A DNA stretch of 64,000 nt from a virus: positions 1 through 64,000 of the IMG/VR virus record IMGVR_UViG_3300008110_000025; one strand, 5' to 3'. Below, piece after piece: positions 1,485-25,714 of this stretch; within the stretch, counting starts at the first letter, position 1, and every line of letters starts with the position of its first letter. The notes below the pieces were generated by a model, which saw nothing but the letters and a program-made list of their open reading frames with translations, searched no databases and was not told the DNA's origin. Made by a program: the position numbers and the translations under genes.

Positions 1485-3407
1485 TTACTTACTCCACACT
1501 TTAGTTATTGATGTCTCTGCTTTTAGTAGTCCGTTACGTATGATTTTATTAGCAGCTCTCTCCATCTCCTCAGTCATATAGATCTTCCATTCCTCTGCAA
1601 AATACTCAGGGCAAATGGTGTCTATCTGATCGTGAACAGTCATTACTATCTTAACAGGATAATTATGTTTCTTGATTCTTTTATAAAGATATACAAGTGC
1701 TAATTTAGTCATATCTGCTGAACTACCCTGAATTGGGGTATTCTTAGATGCTCTCTCAATAGATCCAAGCTCCATAAAGCTGTCTCTATCTCCGTACATT
1801 TTTGGGGTCCAGCTGTCAAACCATCTCTTCCTATAGAATGGGAAGAACGTAGTAACAAACCCGTACCTCTTTCCAAACTCTCCCTGATCCTCAAGGAATC
1901 TTTTAATAGCAGGGAAAGCTTTGAAATACTTATCAATCAAATCCTTTGCTTCAGTCATTGAACAGTTAATAGTCTCACTAAGTTTCTTAGGCCCCATTCC
2001 ATAAGCCAATCCAAAGTTGATTGTCTTAACCTGTGTCCTAAGCTTCTTGTGTTCCTTGCATTCACACTTCTGTGTATACTGATAGTAAGTACAACCATCT
2101 TCTGCTGCATTCTTCCACACTGGTCCGAATACTAACTCAGCACATACAGAGTGTAAGTCTTCATTATTACGTAGTGACTTGAGGAATACAGGATCTCCAG
2201 AACCGTAAGCAATTACATTCAACTCTTGGCTTGAGTAATCAGAGGATACAAACACCCATCCATGTGGAGCAACAAAACAATTACGATACTCATTAGTTGC
2301 TGGTATCTGTTGCATATTAGGTTCACTAGATGACACACGACCTGTGTCTAGTATCTGTTGAAAGTTAGTATGCACCTTACCATCACAACTAATGTAGCTG
2401 TTAAAGTTTGTTCCAAATGCTGATGCTAGTTTACTCTTCTCCTTGTACTTGATGTACTCATCAATCAATGGATGCTTATAACGATAAGGAGCTAGCTTCT
2501 TACCATTTACATCCTCAATCTTAGGGAATAAAGTCTGGAATATCTTAAGCACTTGGCTTGGGCTGTCCCAGTTAACTGTTGAATCCTTTAACTCTGACTC
2601 ATCTAAGAATAAGTCTAGTTGTTTCTTCGCTCTGTACATTTCGAACTCTGAATAGGATAAAAGGCTCGTGTCTAATTGTTTCCCTAAAAGGAAACTTTCT
2701 TGCTTATTCCTATCAGCTAGCTTCTTCCATTGAATGGTGTCAATCTCTAGCCCATTGTACTCAATCTCAGAGAATACAACAACAGCTTGATTCTCGAGTT
2801 TAGCTACATTGCTTAGAGTCTGAAGTTGTAATAGATCTACTTGTTGAAAGTAAATGTCTATTAGATACTCAACGTCCTTAGCACCATAGATAATTTGAGA
2901 GTCATCAAATGGAGTTGATGATGTTTGAGTAAACCTATTACGCACAGACTTATCTAACTCTTTATCAAGATATCTCTTGACAAGCTTAGCCAGTCCAAAT
3001 CCGTAATCAGTTTTCCCACAGTGTAAAATCTTTTCGCATAGGTATGTATCATGAATGTTTACAGTATCTATCTTAAGATAATGCTTAATGAACTTGTAAT
3101 CAAACTTTGCATTGTGGAATACTTTTACGATATCCTCATTGTTTAATACTCTGTTCAATTGCACCTGATCTGCATAAGTTAGATCTCTACAATCAATTAC
3201 ATACTGACGCTCTGCATCACCGATTTGCAGCATAAGTAGTTTCTTACATGTAAAATCAAATCCTTCTGTCTCTGTATCTACGCCTAATACCTTACTGGTT
3301 AGTAGATCTTCAACAGCTTCTTCAATTGTACATGATTTAAAACTACTCGCTATCAGTGCTTGGTTCTTGCTGATAAAGAAAATGTTGTTCATGTTGTTGT
3401 TGTGCAA
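1485..3407 (-). CDS. polA: Family A DNA polymerase with 3'-5' exonuclease domain
   Basis: This is the replicative polymerase of the phage (dNTP addition with proofreading, in the cytoplasm). The N-terminal DEDD exonuclease has Exo I VDTETEG (about 43-49), Exo II FHNAKFDYKF (97-106) and Exo III YGAKDVEYLID (174-184). The polymerase domain has motif A DYSSQEL (near 388), motif B KTINFGLAYG (near 460, with the Arg, Lys, Phe and Tyr of the O-helix) and motif C VHDQ (near 590). All catalytic Asp residues are present. Motif C has Gln where most family members have Glu. There is no 5'-3' exonuclease domain, and 640 aa is normal for phage enzymes. A second in-frame Met (NNIFF) lies five codons in and could be the real start. 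Confidence 0.95.
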   Translation of the reverse strand: MHNNNMNNIFFISKNQALIASSFKSCTIEEAVEDLLTSKVLGVDTETEGFDFTCKKLLMLQIGDAERQYVIDCRDLTYADQVQLNRVLNNEDIVKVFHNAKFDYKFIKHYLKIDTVNIHDTYLCEKILHCGKTDYGFGLAKLVKRYLDKELDKSVRNRFTQTSSTPFDDSQIIYGAKDVEYLIDIYFQQVDLLQLQTLSNVAKLENQAVVVFSEIEYNGLEIDTIQWKKLADRNKQESFLLGKQLDTSLLSYSEFEMYRAKKQLDLFLDESELKDSTVNWDSPSQVLKIFQTLFPKIEDVNGKKLAPYRYKHPLIDEYIKYKEKSKLASAFGTNFNSYISCDGKVHTNFQQILDTGRVSSSEPNMQQIPATNEYRNCFVAPHGWVFVSSDYSSQELNVIAYGSGDPVFLKSLRNNEDLHSVCAELVFGPVWKNAAEDGCTYYQYTQKCECKEHKKLRTQVKTINFGLAYGMGPKKLSETINCSMTEAKDLIDKYFKAFPAIKRFLEDQGEFGKRYGFVTTFFPFYRKRWFDSWTPKMYGDRDSFMELGSIERASKNTPIQGSSADMTKLALVYLYKRIKKHNYPVKIVMTVHDQIDTICPEYFAEEWKIYMTEEMERAANKIIRNGLLKAETSITKVWSK

Positions 3408-3576: not shown

Positions 3577-3733
3577 ACAGTTATTGATTTTTAATTGTTT
3601 CGTAACTAGTAACAAACGGACAGTGTCCCTTGTTTTCTCTTGATTATATACCAGAGAACAGACAGCAGGTAACCCCAAACCTGCTATAGTCTATTCAATG
3701 GTTATTCGTAAGTACACAATGATAGGGTTTTTG

Positions 3734-3814
3734 AAATCAGGATGGGATTCGAACCCATACCTCTGCAAGAGTTCAACGGAACTTGCAGTGCTCTACCAGT
3801 TGAGCTACCTGATT
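3734..3814 (-). tRNA. tRNA-like gene with enlarged anticodon hairpin
   Basis: Acceptor AATCAGG/CCTGATT, D-arm GCTC-AACTGGTA-GAGC, a 5-nt variable loop and T-arm ATGGG-TTCGAAT-CCCAT are all canonical. The anticodon arm is not: a 7-bp stem CTGCAAG/CTTGCAG closes a 12-nt loop (3770-3781) that can itself fold as GTTC/GAAC. With a normal 5-bp stem, 16 nt instead of 7 remain. No simple excision of the extra nine bases leaves a U33 in the canonical 5-bp frame, so I cannot assign the amino acid. The discriminator would be T. It may need processing, or it may be a tRNA mimic. Confidence 0.7.
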
Positions 3815-6254: not shown

Positions 6255-6338
6255 AATGGATGTGAGAGTATTGGCAATCAATCTCTCCAACACACATAAT
6301 AATTTATTAGTAACGAGTAACAACACGAGAATTAAACC

Positions 6339-6361
6339 AAAAAAAGGGGACGAATGTCCCC
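6339..6361 (-). terminator. Rho-independent terminator
   Basis: GGGGAC/GTCCCC stem (6346-6351 with 6356-6361), 4-nt loop. On the minus strand it is followed by seven T (6339-6345), directly downstream of the 99 aa gene. A T-run also follows on the plus strand (6363-6367), so it may work in both directions. Confidence 0.85.
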
Positions 6362-6378
6362 TCTTTTTAAACGAATGA

Positions 6379-6678
6379 TTACTTCTCTTCGTTTGTGATG
6401 ATGCCCTGTTTACGGGCAGCTTCAACAATCATCTTAAACTTAGGATGTTTGTTGTGAACAAAACGAATCATTTGAGTTTCGTTTGTAAATTGTTCATCGA
6501 GGGATGCAAATCCCACGAATACAACTTTACCGTCAATGACTTCGATTTCATCGTTGTCTTTGAGTACATCACGAGTAGAGAGGATAATACCTGAAAGTTT
6601 ATTCTCCTTGAAACAAAGTGATGCGGAAGCAGCAGCAACCATGTTGCTTGCTTGTTGAACTGGTGTTTTCTTGCTCAT
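6379..6678 (-). CDS. Hypothetical protein, first gene of the minus-strand block (99 aa)
   Basis: I place the start at ATG 6678 (MSKKTPVQQASNMVAAAS); the longer frame to 6738 passes through sequence that looks like an untranslated leader. The product has a helical Ala-rich start, then a beta-rich middle (IILSTRDVLKDNDEIEVIDG) and a basic helical end. No family is recognised. It has its own terminator at 6339-6361, so it is probably a single-gene early transcript from the divergent region. Its function could be regulatory, but nothing in the sequence proves it. Confidence 0.65.
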   Translation of the reverse strand: MSKKTPVQQASNMVAAASASLCFKENKLSGIILSTRDVLKDNDEIEVIDGKVVFVGFASLDEQFTNETQMIRFVHNKHPKFKMIVEAARKQGIITNEEK

Positions 6679-6875
6679 TGTGTTTGAGTTTATGAAGTTT
6701 ACGAATAAATTATTATGGGGGATATACTTATCCTCCAAAACTTAGCGGGGGTCTTTGAATACGTAGGATCTCACTATCAAAAAATTTCCCCAGTTAAAAA
6801 AATTTTATGTCAAGTTTTCTGTGCAGTTAACTCGTAACATTTTTCACATTAGATTTGTTACAAAATTCTAACTAA
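6679..6875. promoter_or_regulatory. Divergent intergenic region with host-like promoter
   Basis: This 197-base A/T-rich stretch separates the two genome blocks. On the plus strand TAGATTTG at 6850-6857 matches the Bacteroidetes -7 element TAnnTTTG and lies 19 bases before the ATG at 6876; no clear TTTG -33 box is at the right distance. A 12-mer (CAGTTAACTCGT) at 6824-6835 recurs inside the next gene at 6892-6903. A minus-strand promoter must also lie here, but I see no good match. Confidence 0.55.
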
Positions 6876-7010
6876 ATGGCTAAAGCAAATACAGTTAACT
6901 CGTGGTCCCCAAACCCTAGAAAGAAACGTCCAGGGGTACATTCTAAGAAAAAGTTCTCTAAACTGAAGAGCTCAAAACTTTACAAGAAAGTTAGTAGAGG
7001 TCAAGGATAA
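6876..7010 (+). CDS. Lys/Arg-rich small protein (44 aa)
   Basis: ATG 6876 to TAA 7008-7010 encodes a 44-residue product; after a short start (MAKANTVNSWSPNPRKK) it is almost entirely Lys, Arg, Ser and Gly. Sequences of this kind (S-P-N-P-R-K-K-R-P-G-V-H) are familiar to me as a short conserved gene of Bacteroidetes phages, of unknown role. Its charge suggests nucleic-acid binding, perhaps of DNA or of the structured RNA that follows. It is the first gene of the plus-strand block and has a TAGATTTG promoter box 19 bases upstream. Confidence 0.75.
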   Translation: MAKANTVNSWSPNPRKKRPGVHSKKKFSKLKSSKLYKKVSRGQG

Positions 7011-7015
7011 TTTGC

Positions 7016-7023
7016 TACATTTG
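7016..7023 (+). promoter_or_regulatory. Bacteroidetes-type -7 box (TACATTTG)
   Basis: Matches TAnnTTTG exactly and lies just upstream of the structured non-coding stretch. No TTTG at -33; TTAG at 6991-6994 is the nearest partial match. Could start transcription of the structured RNA near 7030. Confidence 0.4.
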
Positions 7024-7324
7024 CAGACAGCAACCATTCAACTTGAATGATCACCCCTGAGGGCCAAAGAGTAAGTAAGGGGTCAGACGTTGGGTTCTAT
7101 CATACTCACTTTCAATTACATAGAGTATGAAAGTTGTCCCCGATAGTTGCTAAAAAGGAATTGACATAAGGTTCTGGGGTGGATTACGACTATAGGGAAG
7201 AATGGAATGTCCCACCGAAGGCTAAAGACGGCAGAACTGAAACTCAATTTTAAACAAAAAATCCTAAGGGGATAGGTGTGCCCAATTGGGAAATTTAGTT
7301 TATCTTTATCTCAAAATTTCTCGT
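7024..7324 (+). ncRNA. Structured non-coding stretch, candidate novel RNA
   Basis: No gene fits these 300 bases, but many paired segments do. CATTCAA-C-TTGAATG (7035-7049); ACCCC/GGGGT (7053-7057 with 7079-7083); CATACTC/GAGTATG (7101-7107 with 7123-7129) interleaved with ACTTT/AAAGT (7108-7112 with 7130-7134), an H-type pseudoknot; AGCAAC/GTTGCT (7029-7034 with 7146-7151) closing this part. A second domain has GGTTCTG/CAGAACT (7170-7176 with 7232-7238) enclosing GGTGG/CCACC (7078+100-7182 and 7212-7216). CCCAATTGGG at 7281-7290 is a perfect palindrome. It resembles no RNA family I know. Alternatives are an origin of replication or a packaging-related site. Confidence 0.45.
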
Positions 7325-7555
7325 ATGGCAACTAACATTAAAGCAGGGCTGTATCAACCCCCATTTACTACTGAGGAAGATCAGCTTACTTACATGTTAG
7401 TGTACGTAGATGATAAGGTAGTGCAGTTCTTAGATGAGGGGGAAAAGTTTGTCTGTCAGTTTAGCTATGAAGAGCTGAGAGGGATTATGGGGATAATGGC
7501 TGCAGAGCAAGAGAAGACTCATCTTAGAATACAGGCTCATATTAAAAAGAACTAA
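7325..7555 (+). CDS. Hypothetical protein at the start of the tail-fibre operon (76 aa)
   Basis: I start at ATG 7325 (MATNIKAGLYQPPFTTEED) rather than the earlier in-frame ATG at 7286, which lies in structured leader sequence. The product is short, with a beta-type first half and an acidic helical second half (SYEELRGIMGIMAAEQEK). No family is recognised. It is followed after six bases by the next gene and probably belongs to the tail operon, where it could be an assembly factor or virion component. Confidence 0.6.
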   Translation: MATNIKAGLYQPPFTTEEDQLTYMLVYVDDKVVQFLDEGEKFVCQFSYEELRGIMGIMAAEQEKTHLRIQAHIKKN

Positions 7556-7561
7556 GTTAAG

Positions 7562-7909
7562 ATGAAGCTTACAAAGATTGATAAAGTACAGACTAGTCTT
7601 AAGCAACTCATTGATGTAGACCCATCTGGGGAGATCAATGAGATTTATAGAGTCGATGATATTAGGCATAACCAAGTACTTATAGCTAAGGTTTATCAAG
7701 AAAGGCAAGATGTATTTAAGTTTGAATACTTGTCTAACTTCTTTGCTGCAGGGACTGGGATAACACTTACTACTAATGATGCTGGGGTTACTACTATTAC
7801 ATCTACTGCTACTAGCAGTGGGGTTAGTACTAACTCTAATGTGCTTATTGACTGTGGGGCATTCCTCACCCCTAACGAGAATGTACTTGTAGACTGTGGA
7901 ACTTTTTAA
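7562..7909 (+). CDS. Small tail-associated protein (115 aa)
   Basis: The N-terminal 60 residues look like a mixed alpha/beta domain; the second half is a Thr/Ser/Gly-rich low-complexity beta sequence (AAGTGITLTTNDAGVTTIT) as in phage fibre proteins, ending with two copies of a short unit (NVLIDCGAF, NVLVDCGTF). It lies eleven bases before the 1309 aa fibre and the two share a style of sequence, so it may be a fibre base or adaptor piece. The paired Cys in the repeats is unusual in a cytoplasmic assembly protein. Confidence 0.65.
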   Translation: MKLTKIDKVQTSLKQLIDVDPSGEINEIYRVDDIRHNQVLIAKVYQERQDVFKFEYLSNFFAAGTGITLTTNDAGVTTITSTATSSGVSTNSNVLIDCGAFLTPNENVLVDCGTF

Positions 7910-23281: not shown

Positions 23282-23750
23282 CGTAGTCATCCCATCCCCG
23301 TATGCACTGACTGTCACAGAATTCGAGAAGTTAACTACCAAAGAGTTAGCATTTATCTACTTTTTTGCAGATCATAGGTCTAGTTATGCAGCTTATGATG
23401 AAACTGAGAGAAGGGATAAGCTACTAGAGGAGTTAAAAGTCAAGTCTACCCCTAACTTACATGCAGGATTGCAGAAGTACAGGGAATTGTCAGAGACTCA
23501 TGCAATTAAGCTTCTAAAATCAGCTAGATCTGCAGTTAACAAGCTAGAGAAGTACTTCAAAGACATCGATCTTACAGCTATGGACGAGAATGGTAAGCTT
23601 CTCTACCAAGCCAAAGACTTAGTTGCTAACTTATCTAAGATTGGGGAGGTAATAGAAGGCCTAGATAGACTAGAGGAGCTAGTACAGAAGCAGCAAGCTA
23701 AGGATAACCCTAACAGAGCAGGTGTCAAGACTAATAAGTACAGTGAATGA
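23253..23750 (+). CDS. Putative terminase small subunit (165 aa)
   Basis: No definite motif. The protein is almost all helical, with charged helices and a possible coiled coil at 110-155 (IGEVIEGLDRLEELVQKQQ), and a C-terminal basic tail. It directly precedes TerL with an ATGA overlap, the usual position of TerS, which recognises phage DNA and presents it to TerL. Function is assigned by position and fold style only. Confidence 0.5.
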   Translation: MKDLLTINNNVVIPSPYALTVTEFEKLTTKELAFIYFFADHRSSYAAYDETERRDKLLEELKVKSTPNLHAGLQKYRELSETHAIKLLKSARSAVNKLEKYFKDIDLTAMDENGKLLYQAKDLVANLSKIGEVIEGLDRLEELVQKQQAKDNPNRAGVKTNKYSE

Positions 23751-25714
23751 TGTTTAAAGACAGCCATTTATTCTCAGAAGCAGCTAATCACTACATCGAG
23801 TATGGGTATTACACAGATGCCCTACCTGGTACTAAGCAATACTATGACTATTGGGATAGAGAACAGCATAGATGCATGCACGGGCATGAGATAAATGGGG
23901 TTAGGATATCAGGATTTCACTATTTTTACCTTAACTACTGTCCTATCGATAGAATTATAGATGAAGTACAGCCAGATGGGGAGACAATTTCACGAAGAGA
24001 TAGGAGTTTTCCAGCCTTCTACGATGGGGATCATGAGTACTTTTCCTCGGTAGATAGGTGTAGAAGAGAGAATAAACACATGGTTGTGCTTAAGGCTAGA
24101 CGTAAAGGTTTCTCTTACAAAGCCGCAGCTATGCTATGTAGGAACTACTTTCATATACGAAATAGCAAGAACTTCGTATTTGCATCAGATAAACAGTATT
24201 TGACTGGGGATGGTATGCTATCTAAGGCTTGGGATATCGTCTCTTTCGTAGATGATAATACAGCTTGGAGTCAACCCAGACTTATAGACAGGGAGATGCA
24301 TAAGCAATCTGGATATAAGAAGAATGTAAACGGAGCTGACGTAACTCTAGGATTTAAGTCACAAATAATAGGGGTATCTCTTAAAGATGACCCAGATAAG
24401 ATACGTGGTAAAGCAGGGGAATTGATATTCTTTGAAGAAGCAGGTTCATTCTCAGGTTTGTTAAAGGCTTGGGAGGTAGCTATGCCTACAATGAGGCAAG
24501 GTTCTAAGACATTAGGTACTATGATTGCCTTTGGAACTGGTGGAGAAGAAGGTCCTGGATTCGAAGGATTAGAAGAACTGTTCTATCACCCCGAAGCTTA
24601 TGACTGTTTAGCATTTGATAACGAGTGGGATGCTGGGGCTATGGGAACTAGCTGTGGATTCTTCGTTCCTATCTATAAAAACTTAGACGGTTTTATGGAT
24701 AGTGAGGGAAATAGCTTATCTAACGAAGCTATGGACTATGAAGAGACACAAAGGGAGAAGAAGAGGAAAGGTAATGACCCAAAGTCATATGATCAGTATA
24801 TAGCTGAACATCCATTTACCCCACAAGAGGCAACACTTCAAGTAACAGCTAATACATTCGATGTTAACTCCCTAAAAGAACAGTACAATAGAGTGATAGC
24901 TAGTGACTTACATAAGATAGGGGTAGCTGGGGAGATGTACTACAATACTAAAGGAAAAGCAGACTTTGCCCCTAATTCTAGTGTTAGACCCATCTATAAG
25001 TTCCCACATAGACCAGATGACGATTTAACTGGGGCAGTAGTAATTTATGAAGCCCCGTTTAAGACTCAAGAAGATATAATCCCAAAGAATCTGTACATTA
25101 TCTGTCATGACCCGTATGCACAGGGAAAGGCAACTAGTTCTATGTCGTTAGGGGCAGCCTATGTTATAAAGGTGCCTAACAATCTATCTAAGCCAGATGA
25201 TATTATAGTAGCTTCTTATATAGGTAGACCTGCAACTCAGGATGAGTATAACAGAAACCTATTCATGCTAGCAGAATACTACAATGCTAAGATAGGATTC
25301 GAGAATGACCGAGGAGAAGTAATAGCTTATGCTAAAAGATTTAGAAAACTACACTTACTGCAAGAAGAATTCGAGATGTTGGATAAGAGAGAGTTACGAT
25401 CTAAGAACGTAAAAAGGCAGTATGGTATGCACATGACTGAGCAGAGAAAAGCTCAGGGTGAACTTTATATACGAGATTGGCTAATTAGTGGCAGGGGACA
25501 GAACGAAGATGGGGAAATAACCCTTAACTTGCAAAAAATTTATGACCCTGCTCTTTTACAGGAGTTGATTAAGTTTAATAGGAAAGGTAACTTTGACCGT
25601 GTTATGGCACTCATGGTTGGGATGTACCATACTAGAGAACTTTATAACAAGGAGTTAAGTTATAATGACTCCGATAACTCAAGTAATGAGTGGTTTGACA
25701 AGGTTTATAGGTAG
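23747..25714 (+). CDS. terL: Terminase large subunit
   Basis: Packaging motor ATPase and nuclease. The Walker A-like motif KARRKGFSYK (116-125) and Walker B LIFFEEAG (226-233, with the catalytic Glu pair) define the ATPase; IAFGTGG (about 261-267) is the coupling motif region. The C-terminal RNase H-like nuclease has ICHDPYAQG (about 449-457, first Asp) and IGFENDRG (about 516). At 655 aa it is in the normal range. The stop is TAG. It lies between the putative TerS and the portal, the canonical order. Confidence 0.95.
   Translation: MMFKDSHLFSEAANHYIEYGYYTDALPGTKQYYDYWDREQHRCMHGHEINGVRISGFHYFYLNYCPIDRIIDEVQPDGETISRRDRSFPAFYDGDHEYFSSVDRCRRENKHMVVLKARRKGFSYKAAAMLCRNYFHIRNSKNFVFASDKQYLTGDGMLSKAWDIVSFVDDNTAWSQPRLIDREMHKQSGYKKNVNGADVTLGFKSQIIGVSLKDDPDKIRGKAGELIFFEEAGSFSGLLKAWEVAMPTMRQGSKTLGTMIAFGTGGEEGPGFEGLEELFYHPEAYDCLAFDNEWDAGAMGTSCGFFVPIYKNLDGFMDSEGNSLSNEAMDYEETQREKKRKGNDPKSYDQYIAEHPFTPQEATLQVTANTFDVNSLKEQYNRVIASDLHKIGVAGEMYYNTKGKADFAPNSSVRPIYKFPHRPDDDLTGAVVIYEAPFKTQEDIIPKNLYIICHDPYAQGKATSSMSLGAAYVIKVPNNLSKPDDIIVASYIGRPATQDEYNRNLFMLAEYYNAKIGFENDRGEVIAYAKRFRKLHLLQEEFEMLDKRELRSKNVKRQYGMHMTEQRKAQGELYIRDWLISGRGQNEDGEITLNLQKIYDPALLQELIKFNRKGNFDRVMALMVGMYHTRELYNKELSYNDSDNSSNEWFDKVYR

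Follow-up and report, generated by a model that had tools for sequence, protein, structure and literature searches.

A new structured RNA class shared by phages of Bacteroidota, found at the head of the late genes of an aquatic crAss-like phage

Introduction

Processive antitermination can be brought about by leader RNAs, as with the put sites of HK022 and the EAR element of Bacillus, and the packaging RNA of phi29 is an example of a small structured RNA encoded by a phage. Phages and prophages also carry large structured RNAs whose function is unknown, i.e. the GOLLD and ROOL RNAs, which measure ~660 to >800 nt and often lie near tRNA islands (PMC12286853). In the Bacteroidota, the 6S-flavo, Bacteroidales-1, Flavo-1 and other RNA motifs have been described (PMC2864571). 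The primary sigma factor of this phylum has the -7 consensus TAnnTTTG (PMC7366714), and the late genes of Crassvirales are probably read by the host RNA polymerase (PMC10136315).

Here we analyze a non-coding locus within a 64-kb stretch of DNA (the window), which makes up the first part of an 87.7-kb virus record. An earlier note, made from the letters of this DNA, had seen complementary segments in the locus and suggested a novel phage RNA, an origin or a regulatory leader.

Results

The locus and its genomic setting

The window genome is that of an aquatic crAss-like phage. Head-and-packaging PHROGs are matched by its portal, its major head protein and its large terminase subunit (23747-25714). 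Gut crAss-like phages supply the best matches to the terminase, at 40-43% identity, and wherever the lineage of such a phage was read it was Suoliviridae. Genes to the left of ~6.7 kb run leftward, including a DNA polymerase at 1485-3407, and genes to the right of 7.3 kb run rightward and continue through the virion genes. The RNA locus sits at this switch, just before the structural block, and the RNA extends over ~7029-7283 on the + strand, directly 3' of a conserved box, TACATTTG. The surrounding features are as follows.

6850-6857, + strand: TAGATTTG, a -7-box-like element 5' of the basic peptide gene and among the few intergenic TAnnTTTG sites on this strand
6876-7010, + strand: gene for a very basic peptide of 44 aa (KKRPGVHSKKKFSKLKSSKLYKKVSRGQG), whose relatives precede the RNA in some other loci
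7016-7023, + strand: TACATTTG, a conserved TAnnTTTG box of the Bacteroidota -7 type, 5 nt before helix P1
7325-7555, + strand: first downstream gene (76 aa, unknown), which starts the rightward structural block and has structural genes downstream of it

The ~300 bases that the earlier note had described as carrying no gene are indeed non-coding, with no plausible reading frame among the open reading frames of 7011-7324, and the promoter box that it placed before the locus is TACATTTG. Elsewhere in the leftward block there is a strong terminator-like hairpin on both strands at 6337-6370, just left of the leftward gene 6379-6738, and there are three tRNA genes or tRNA-like matches on the - strand (299-471 and 3733-3814), the anticodon of the match at 3733-3814 not being nameable by ARAGORN.

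Distribution of the RNA

The first homologs were found in IMG/VR via the neighboring proteins (the 76-aa and 44-aa products), and a profile search of these neighbor-protein loci yielded 28 distinct full copies of the RNA, from which alignments of domain 1 (A6) and domain 2 (A5) were built without reference to structure. A covariance model of domain 1 then matched a distant copy in L105 and a copy in the named human-gut crAss-like phage cr118_1 (MT774379.1 66588-66700; E 8.7e-7, and 3.3e-11 with a later model), which lies in an intergenic stretch between divergent genes (66305-66926) that is followed by chaperonin, RNase HI and terminase genes. BLASTN of three members of the RNA against named phages gave no match; the covariance model was the only route to cr118_1.

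Scanning with a core-motif pattern (CAGANGTYGGGTN{20,50}GTCCCCRATAG) recovered 112 stretches from viruses and 25 from bacteria, the latter in 10 genomes that are all Bacteroidota. A search of 100 loci with model R2 returned 98 domain-1 matches. The class is defined by P1-P4 with GUYGGGU and GUCCCCRAUAG, all of which the window possesses (models R2 and R3). A first, strict pattern had found nothing in bacterial genomes, where the domain-1 core pattern succeeded. Scans of 396 Bacteroidota genomes and 41 genomes of the family revealed no carrier beyond the starting genome, a count that is a lower bound given the strict filters used, and the RNA is therefore rare in bacterial genomes. It is spread over many unrelated viruses of Bacteroidota bacteria and a few of those bacteria, with one copy per virus record in all 25 records tested; many related crAss-like phages had no detectable copy, i.e. 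the distribution is patchy. The record of another gut crAss-like phage, cr52_1 (L235, NC_055888.1 81171-81551), annotates a tmRNA, and no match to this RNA was found there.

Domain 1 is supported by fold energy and covariation

Domain 1 is a five-helix core built around a junction that joins P2, P3 and P4 and is closed by P1.

7029-7151, + strand: RNA domain 1, supported by covariation (P1-P4), fold energy and complementary P5 arms
7029-7034/7146-7151, + strand: P1, AGCAAC/GTTGCT
7035-7038/7046-7049, + strand: P2
7053-7058/7078-7083, + strand: P3
7089-7094/7139-7144, + strand: P4, which carries hairpin P5
7101-7107/7123-7129, + strand: hairpin P5, CATACTC/GAGTATG, whose arms differ between relatives yet stay complementary

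The whole 314 nt folded no better than its shuffles (z -0.57). Domain 1 alone (7028-7152) gave z -3.04 with none of 200 shuffles as good, and its minimum free energy structure contains every domain-1 helix that was later supported by relatives. In the alignment of the 28 distinct copies, 98.1% of cells were paired and 10 of the 22 pairs showed double changes; the covariation score was 0.319 against 0.116 in shuffles, none of 500 reaching it. As an example of compensation, P1 changes from AGCAAC/GUUGCU to CUCACC/GGUGAG in relatives. With the 98 domain-1 matches, 95.1% of cells paired, 18 of 22 pairs had double changes and the score rose to 0.653 (0.164 when shuffled; 0/500 as high). Because this larger alignment was fitted to the model and the search pattern fixes most letters of P4, the evidence that it adds is for P1, P2 and P3, most letters of which lie outside the pattern. 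The same matches contain 180 G-U cells and just 20 A-C cells, which identifies the + strand as the one that folds.

The earlier note had proposed the closing AGCAAC/GTTGCT pair and the CATACTC/GAGTATG pairing, which correspond to P1 and P5. It also interleaved the latter with ACTTT (7108-7112)/AAAGT (7130-7134) as an H-type pseudoknot. Relatives break this pairing: ACTTT reads ATTCT in L003, L005, L006 and L008 and ACATT in L009, while AAAGT is unchanged. In the window clade only, a different loop/3'-strand pairing takes its place as the candidate.

7113-7116/7133-7136, + strand: possible pairing CAAU/GUUG

CAAY/GUUG is a candidate pairing, compatible in nearly all members of the window clade, in which its GUUG side never varies and so shows no compensatory change. 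Hairpins capped by a 5-nt loop and devoid of such a pairing are common outside the clade.

Domain 2 and a conserved tail

The second domain, for which the earlier note had given nested 7-bp and 5-bp stems, was confirmed by covariation as P7 and P8. All of the note's helices except the pseudoknot pair thus stood, although it had overlooked P2, P3, P4, P6 and the conserved tail.

7159-7249, + strand: RNA domain 2, supported by covariation
7159-7164/7244-7249, + strand: P6, enclosing P7 and P8 in members of the window clade
7170-7176/7232-7238, + strand: P7
7178-7182/7212-7216 with 7188-7190/7209-7211, + strand: P8
7264-7283, + strand: conserved tail CUAAGGGGAUAGGUGUGCCC, kept in L105 and cr118_1 despite their differing domain 2

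Among the 28 distinct copies of domain 2, 98.3% of cells were paired and 13 of the 22 pairs had double changes, with a covariation score of 0.457 against 0.175 after shuffling (0/500 as high); controls in which the helices were slid paired in only 29-47% of cells. P7 changes from GGUUCUG/CAGAACU to AACCUGUG/CACAGGUU, GCUUUGUG/CACAAAGC or UAUUUGUG/CACAAAUA in relatives, and P8 from GGUGG/CCACC to GGAGG/CCUCC. In other lineages the domain 2 arm is replaced, or shortened to a short hairpin.

The tail, AAGGGG(G)AU...URURYCU, was found within 350 nt in 36 of 62 distinct viral members, where 1.6 were expected (GGGG..URURYC motif). Two readings of it were dropped: as a mimic of the 16S rRNA 3' end (GAUCACC), the letters for which are absent from cr118_1, and as a start codon AUG/GUG after the GGGG, where the letters vary (UAUAUC, UGUAUC).

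Putative promoter boxes and the basic peptide

By its likeness to the consensus (PMC7366714), TACATTTG would be an active promoter and TAGATTTG may function in the same way. Members of the window clade retain the box, with its start 10-12 nt 5' of P1, even as the flanks diverge. Many other groups have no TAnnTTTG box at that spot, so other promoters may be in use there. In one viral group (L267, L278, L288 and also L272) an apparent intrinsic-terminator T-run of the upstream gene lies ~10-25 nt before the RNA, leaving little space for a promoter between the two.

A gene for the basic peptide was present within ~300 nt 5' of the RNA in 22 of the 98 loci, and most loci lack it. The 44-aa peptide had no match in Pfam or PHROG. 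Genes for such peptides of 44-46 aa (..RPGVHSK..SKLYKK..RGQG) recur across many viral contigs.

Gene context in viruses and bacteria

In the viral loci with a scorable downstream neighbor, which were not fully dereplicated, the next gene of at least 60 aa was on the strand of the RNA in 68 of 70 cases, and the upstream neighbor was on the opposite strand in 39-40 of them. Among the genes downstream are those for both terminase subunits (small and large) and a holin, and virion genes in the window; in one phage group the RNA is immediately 5' of the terminase subunits. The first genes after the RNA differ between phages. No terminator-like site was found between the RNA and the first gene in the window, and other intergenic TAnnTTTG sites are scarce in the late block there. 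In L105 an additional TATATTTG box lies between the RNA and the next genes.

For the bacterial copies, the next gene was on the other strand in 17 of 24 cases, and copies on bacterial chromosomes also occur away from any block switch. The ~2-Mb genomes of two rumen Bacteroidales MAGs, RUI415 and RUG14866, hold 12-14 paralogous free-standing domain-1 copies each (L355, L359-L364, L367-L373, L375, L377 and L378). These frequently have a convergent gene next to them, with its 3' end towards the RNA. Many of the copies have a TAACTTTG box upstream, and in one of the two genomes the paralogs are conserved mainly over the RNA unit. Several rumen copies are convergent to genes with a KVVVR-type C-terminus, which we read as a type IX secretion (T9SS-like) signal, and some bacterial copies are near restriction-like genes and integrases.

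Discussion

That the locus encodes a real structured RNA is practically certain. The covariation test in relatives that the earlier note had proposed was decisive, with no shuffle scoring as high in either domain. The Rfam search, also proposed there, returned nothing relevant: Rfam 15 matched only tRNAs in the whole window, and gave no relevant match to 6700-7600 at E<=10 or to five divergent relatives at E<=1. The searched literature, including the Crassvirales papers searched for it, contained no description of this RNA. A tmRNA was rejected, as ARAGORN found none in the window and the Rfam tmRNA model gave just a 13-bit, non-overlapping match in L266; so was a Y RNA acting with a phage TROVE protein, since neither the window record, nor five other virus records of the RNA clade, nor cr118_1 has a TROVE domain. 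The strong covariation, the lack of an Rfam match and the conservation across unrelated phages together support the idea of a novel phage RNA, and the class matches no described family.

We favor, with a probability of about 40%, a reading of the RNA as a late-operon leader that would act in cis on transcription or on the late transcript. In this reading the host RNA polymerase would transcribe the RNA from the TAnnTTTG promoter, with P1 as the probable 5' end of the late transcript; the RNA would fold while emerging from the polymerase, and the folded RNA could then act in cis on the polymerase or the transcript, by processive antitermination like that of put and EAR. A single promoter could thereby serve the ~55-kb late block, and in a subset of phages the upstream-encoded basic peptide may be a partner protein. 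The regulatory leader of the earlier note is thus a possible and indeed the preferred function, favored by the collinear downstream genes, the single copy per virus record, the TAnnTTTG box close before P1 in the window clade, the scarcity of other such sites in the window's late block and the absence of any terminator-like site between the RNA and the first gene there. Against it stand the free-standing copies in the rumen Bacteroidales, which a cis leader does not need, the box between the RNA and the next genes in L105, the weak evidence for terminators to overcome in the late block of the window, and the many related crAss-like phages with no detectable copy.

What speaks most strongly against a cis leader is the free-standing bacterial copies, and on their account the main rival is only somewhat less probable: the RNA would be a free-standing ncRNA that acts in trans, by itself or in an RNP together with the basic peptide, and the head of the late block would merely offer it a strong late promoter. 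Its targets might be host transcription, translation or defenses. The rumen paralogs, many with boxes of their own and in one genome conserved mainly over the RNA unit, the nearby peptide genes, the patchy distribution and the restriction-like genes and integrases beside some bacterial copies are in its favor. Against it, the gene that follows the RNA in viruses is nearly always near and collinear, the RNA in the window does not end in a terminator, and the peptide is absent from most loci. A fuller form of this idea, which we consider rather unlikely, is a phage-borne RNA or RNP machine whose target, reached in trans, would be a host process that Bacteroidota share, and which is carried once per phage across unrelated groups and has been taken over by some rumen Bacteroidales as a 12-14-copy ncRNA gene family.

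It is improbable that the RNA is a riboswitch-like leader of the first late gene, sensing a ligand or a protein. The compact junction fold and invariant loop letters would suit such a role, and the GGGGA of the tail is complementary to the invariant UCCCC of domain 1, with which it could pair, as a switch element, in place of P4; but the first genes vary among phages, the free bacterial copies control no evident gene, and no sequence variation probes the alternative pairing. A packaging RNA acting with the terminase, like that of phi29, would fit the single copy per phage and the terminase adjacency in one phage group, which is a likeness to phi29 along with being a small structured phage RNA. 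This we regard as very improbable, as the terminase is 16 kb away in the window, chromosomal paralogs are multi-copy, no Rfam packaging RNA matched, and host range, structure and location differ from those of the phi29 RNA. Finally, the origin of the earlier note, i.e. a DNA element with incidental hairpins, has its position at a transcription block switch to recommend it but is scarcely credible, as the G-U excess on one strand points to a transcript, the compensatory changes fall in RNA-type helices, a promoter box lies immediately 5' of P1, and copies occur away from block switches.

The covariation, together with the sharing of the RNA by unrelated phages (crAss-like ones included) and host chromosomes, indicates a conserved function to which annotation based on proteins has been blind. 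The RNA offers a way into the question of how late transcription is started or sustained in crAss-like and other phages of Bacteroidota, and the covariance model can now be used to find it in transcriptomes.

Among described RNAs, GOLLD and ROOL resemble it as structured phage RNAs whose function is unknown, whereas this RNA is ~150-330 nt long, heads late blocks and is not matched by their Rfam models. The Bacteroidota motifs share its host phylum, and those that have Rfam models were searched without a match. The put and EAR elements differ from it in size and structure, no Rfam match links it to them, and they are confined to leaders, whereas free-standing copies of this RNA face convergent genes in bacterial chromosomes. 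What the leader reading would share with put and EAR is a structured RNA that opens a long operon and acts ahead of the genes it serves, and the viral loci have this arrangement, with the RNA at the 5' end and on the same strand (68/70) and a long late block following it in the window; if the RNA is an antiterminator, a function of a known kind would be performed by a new class of RNA.
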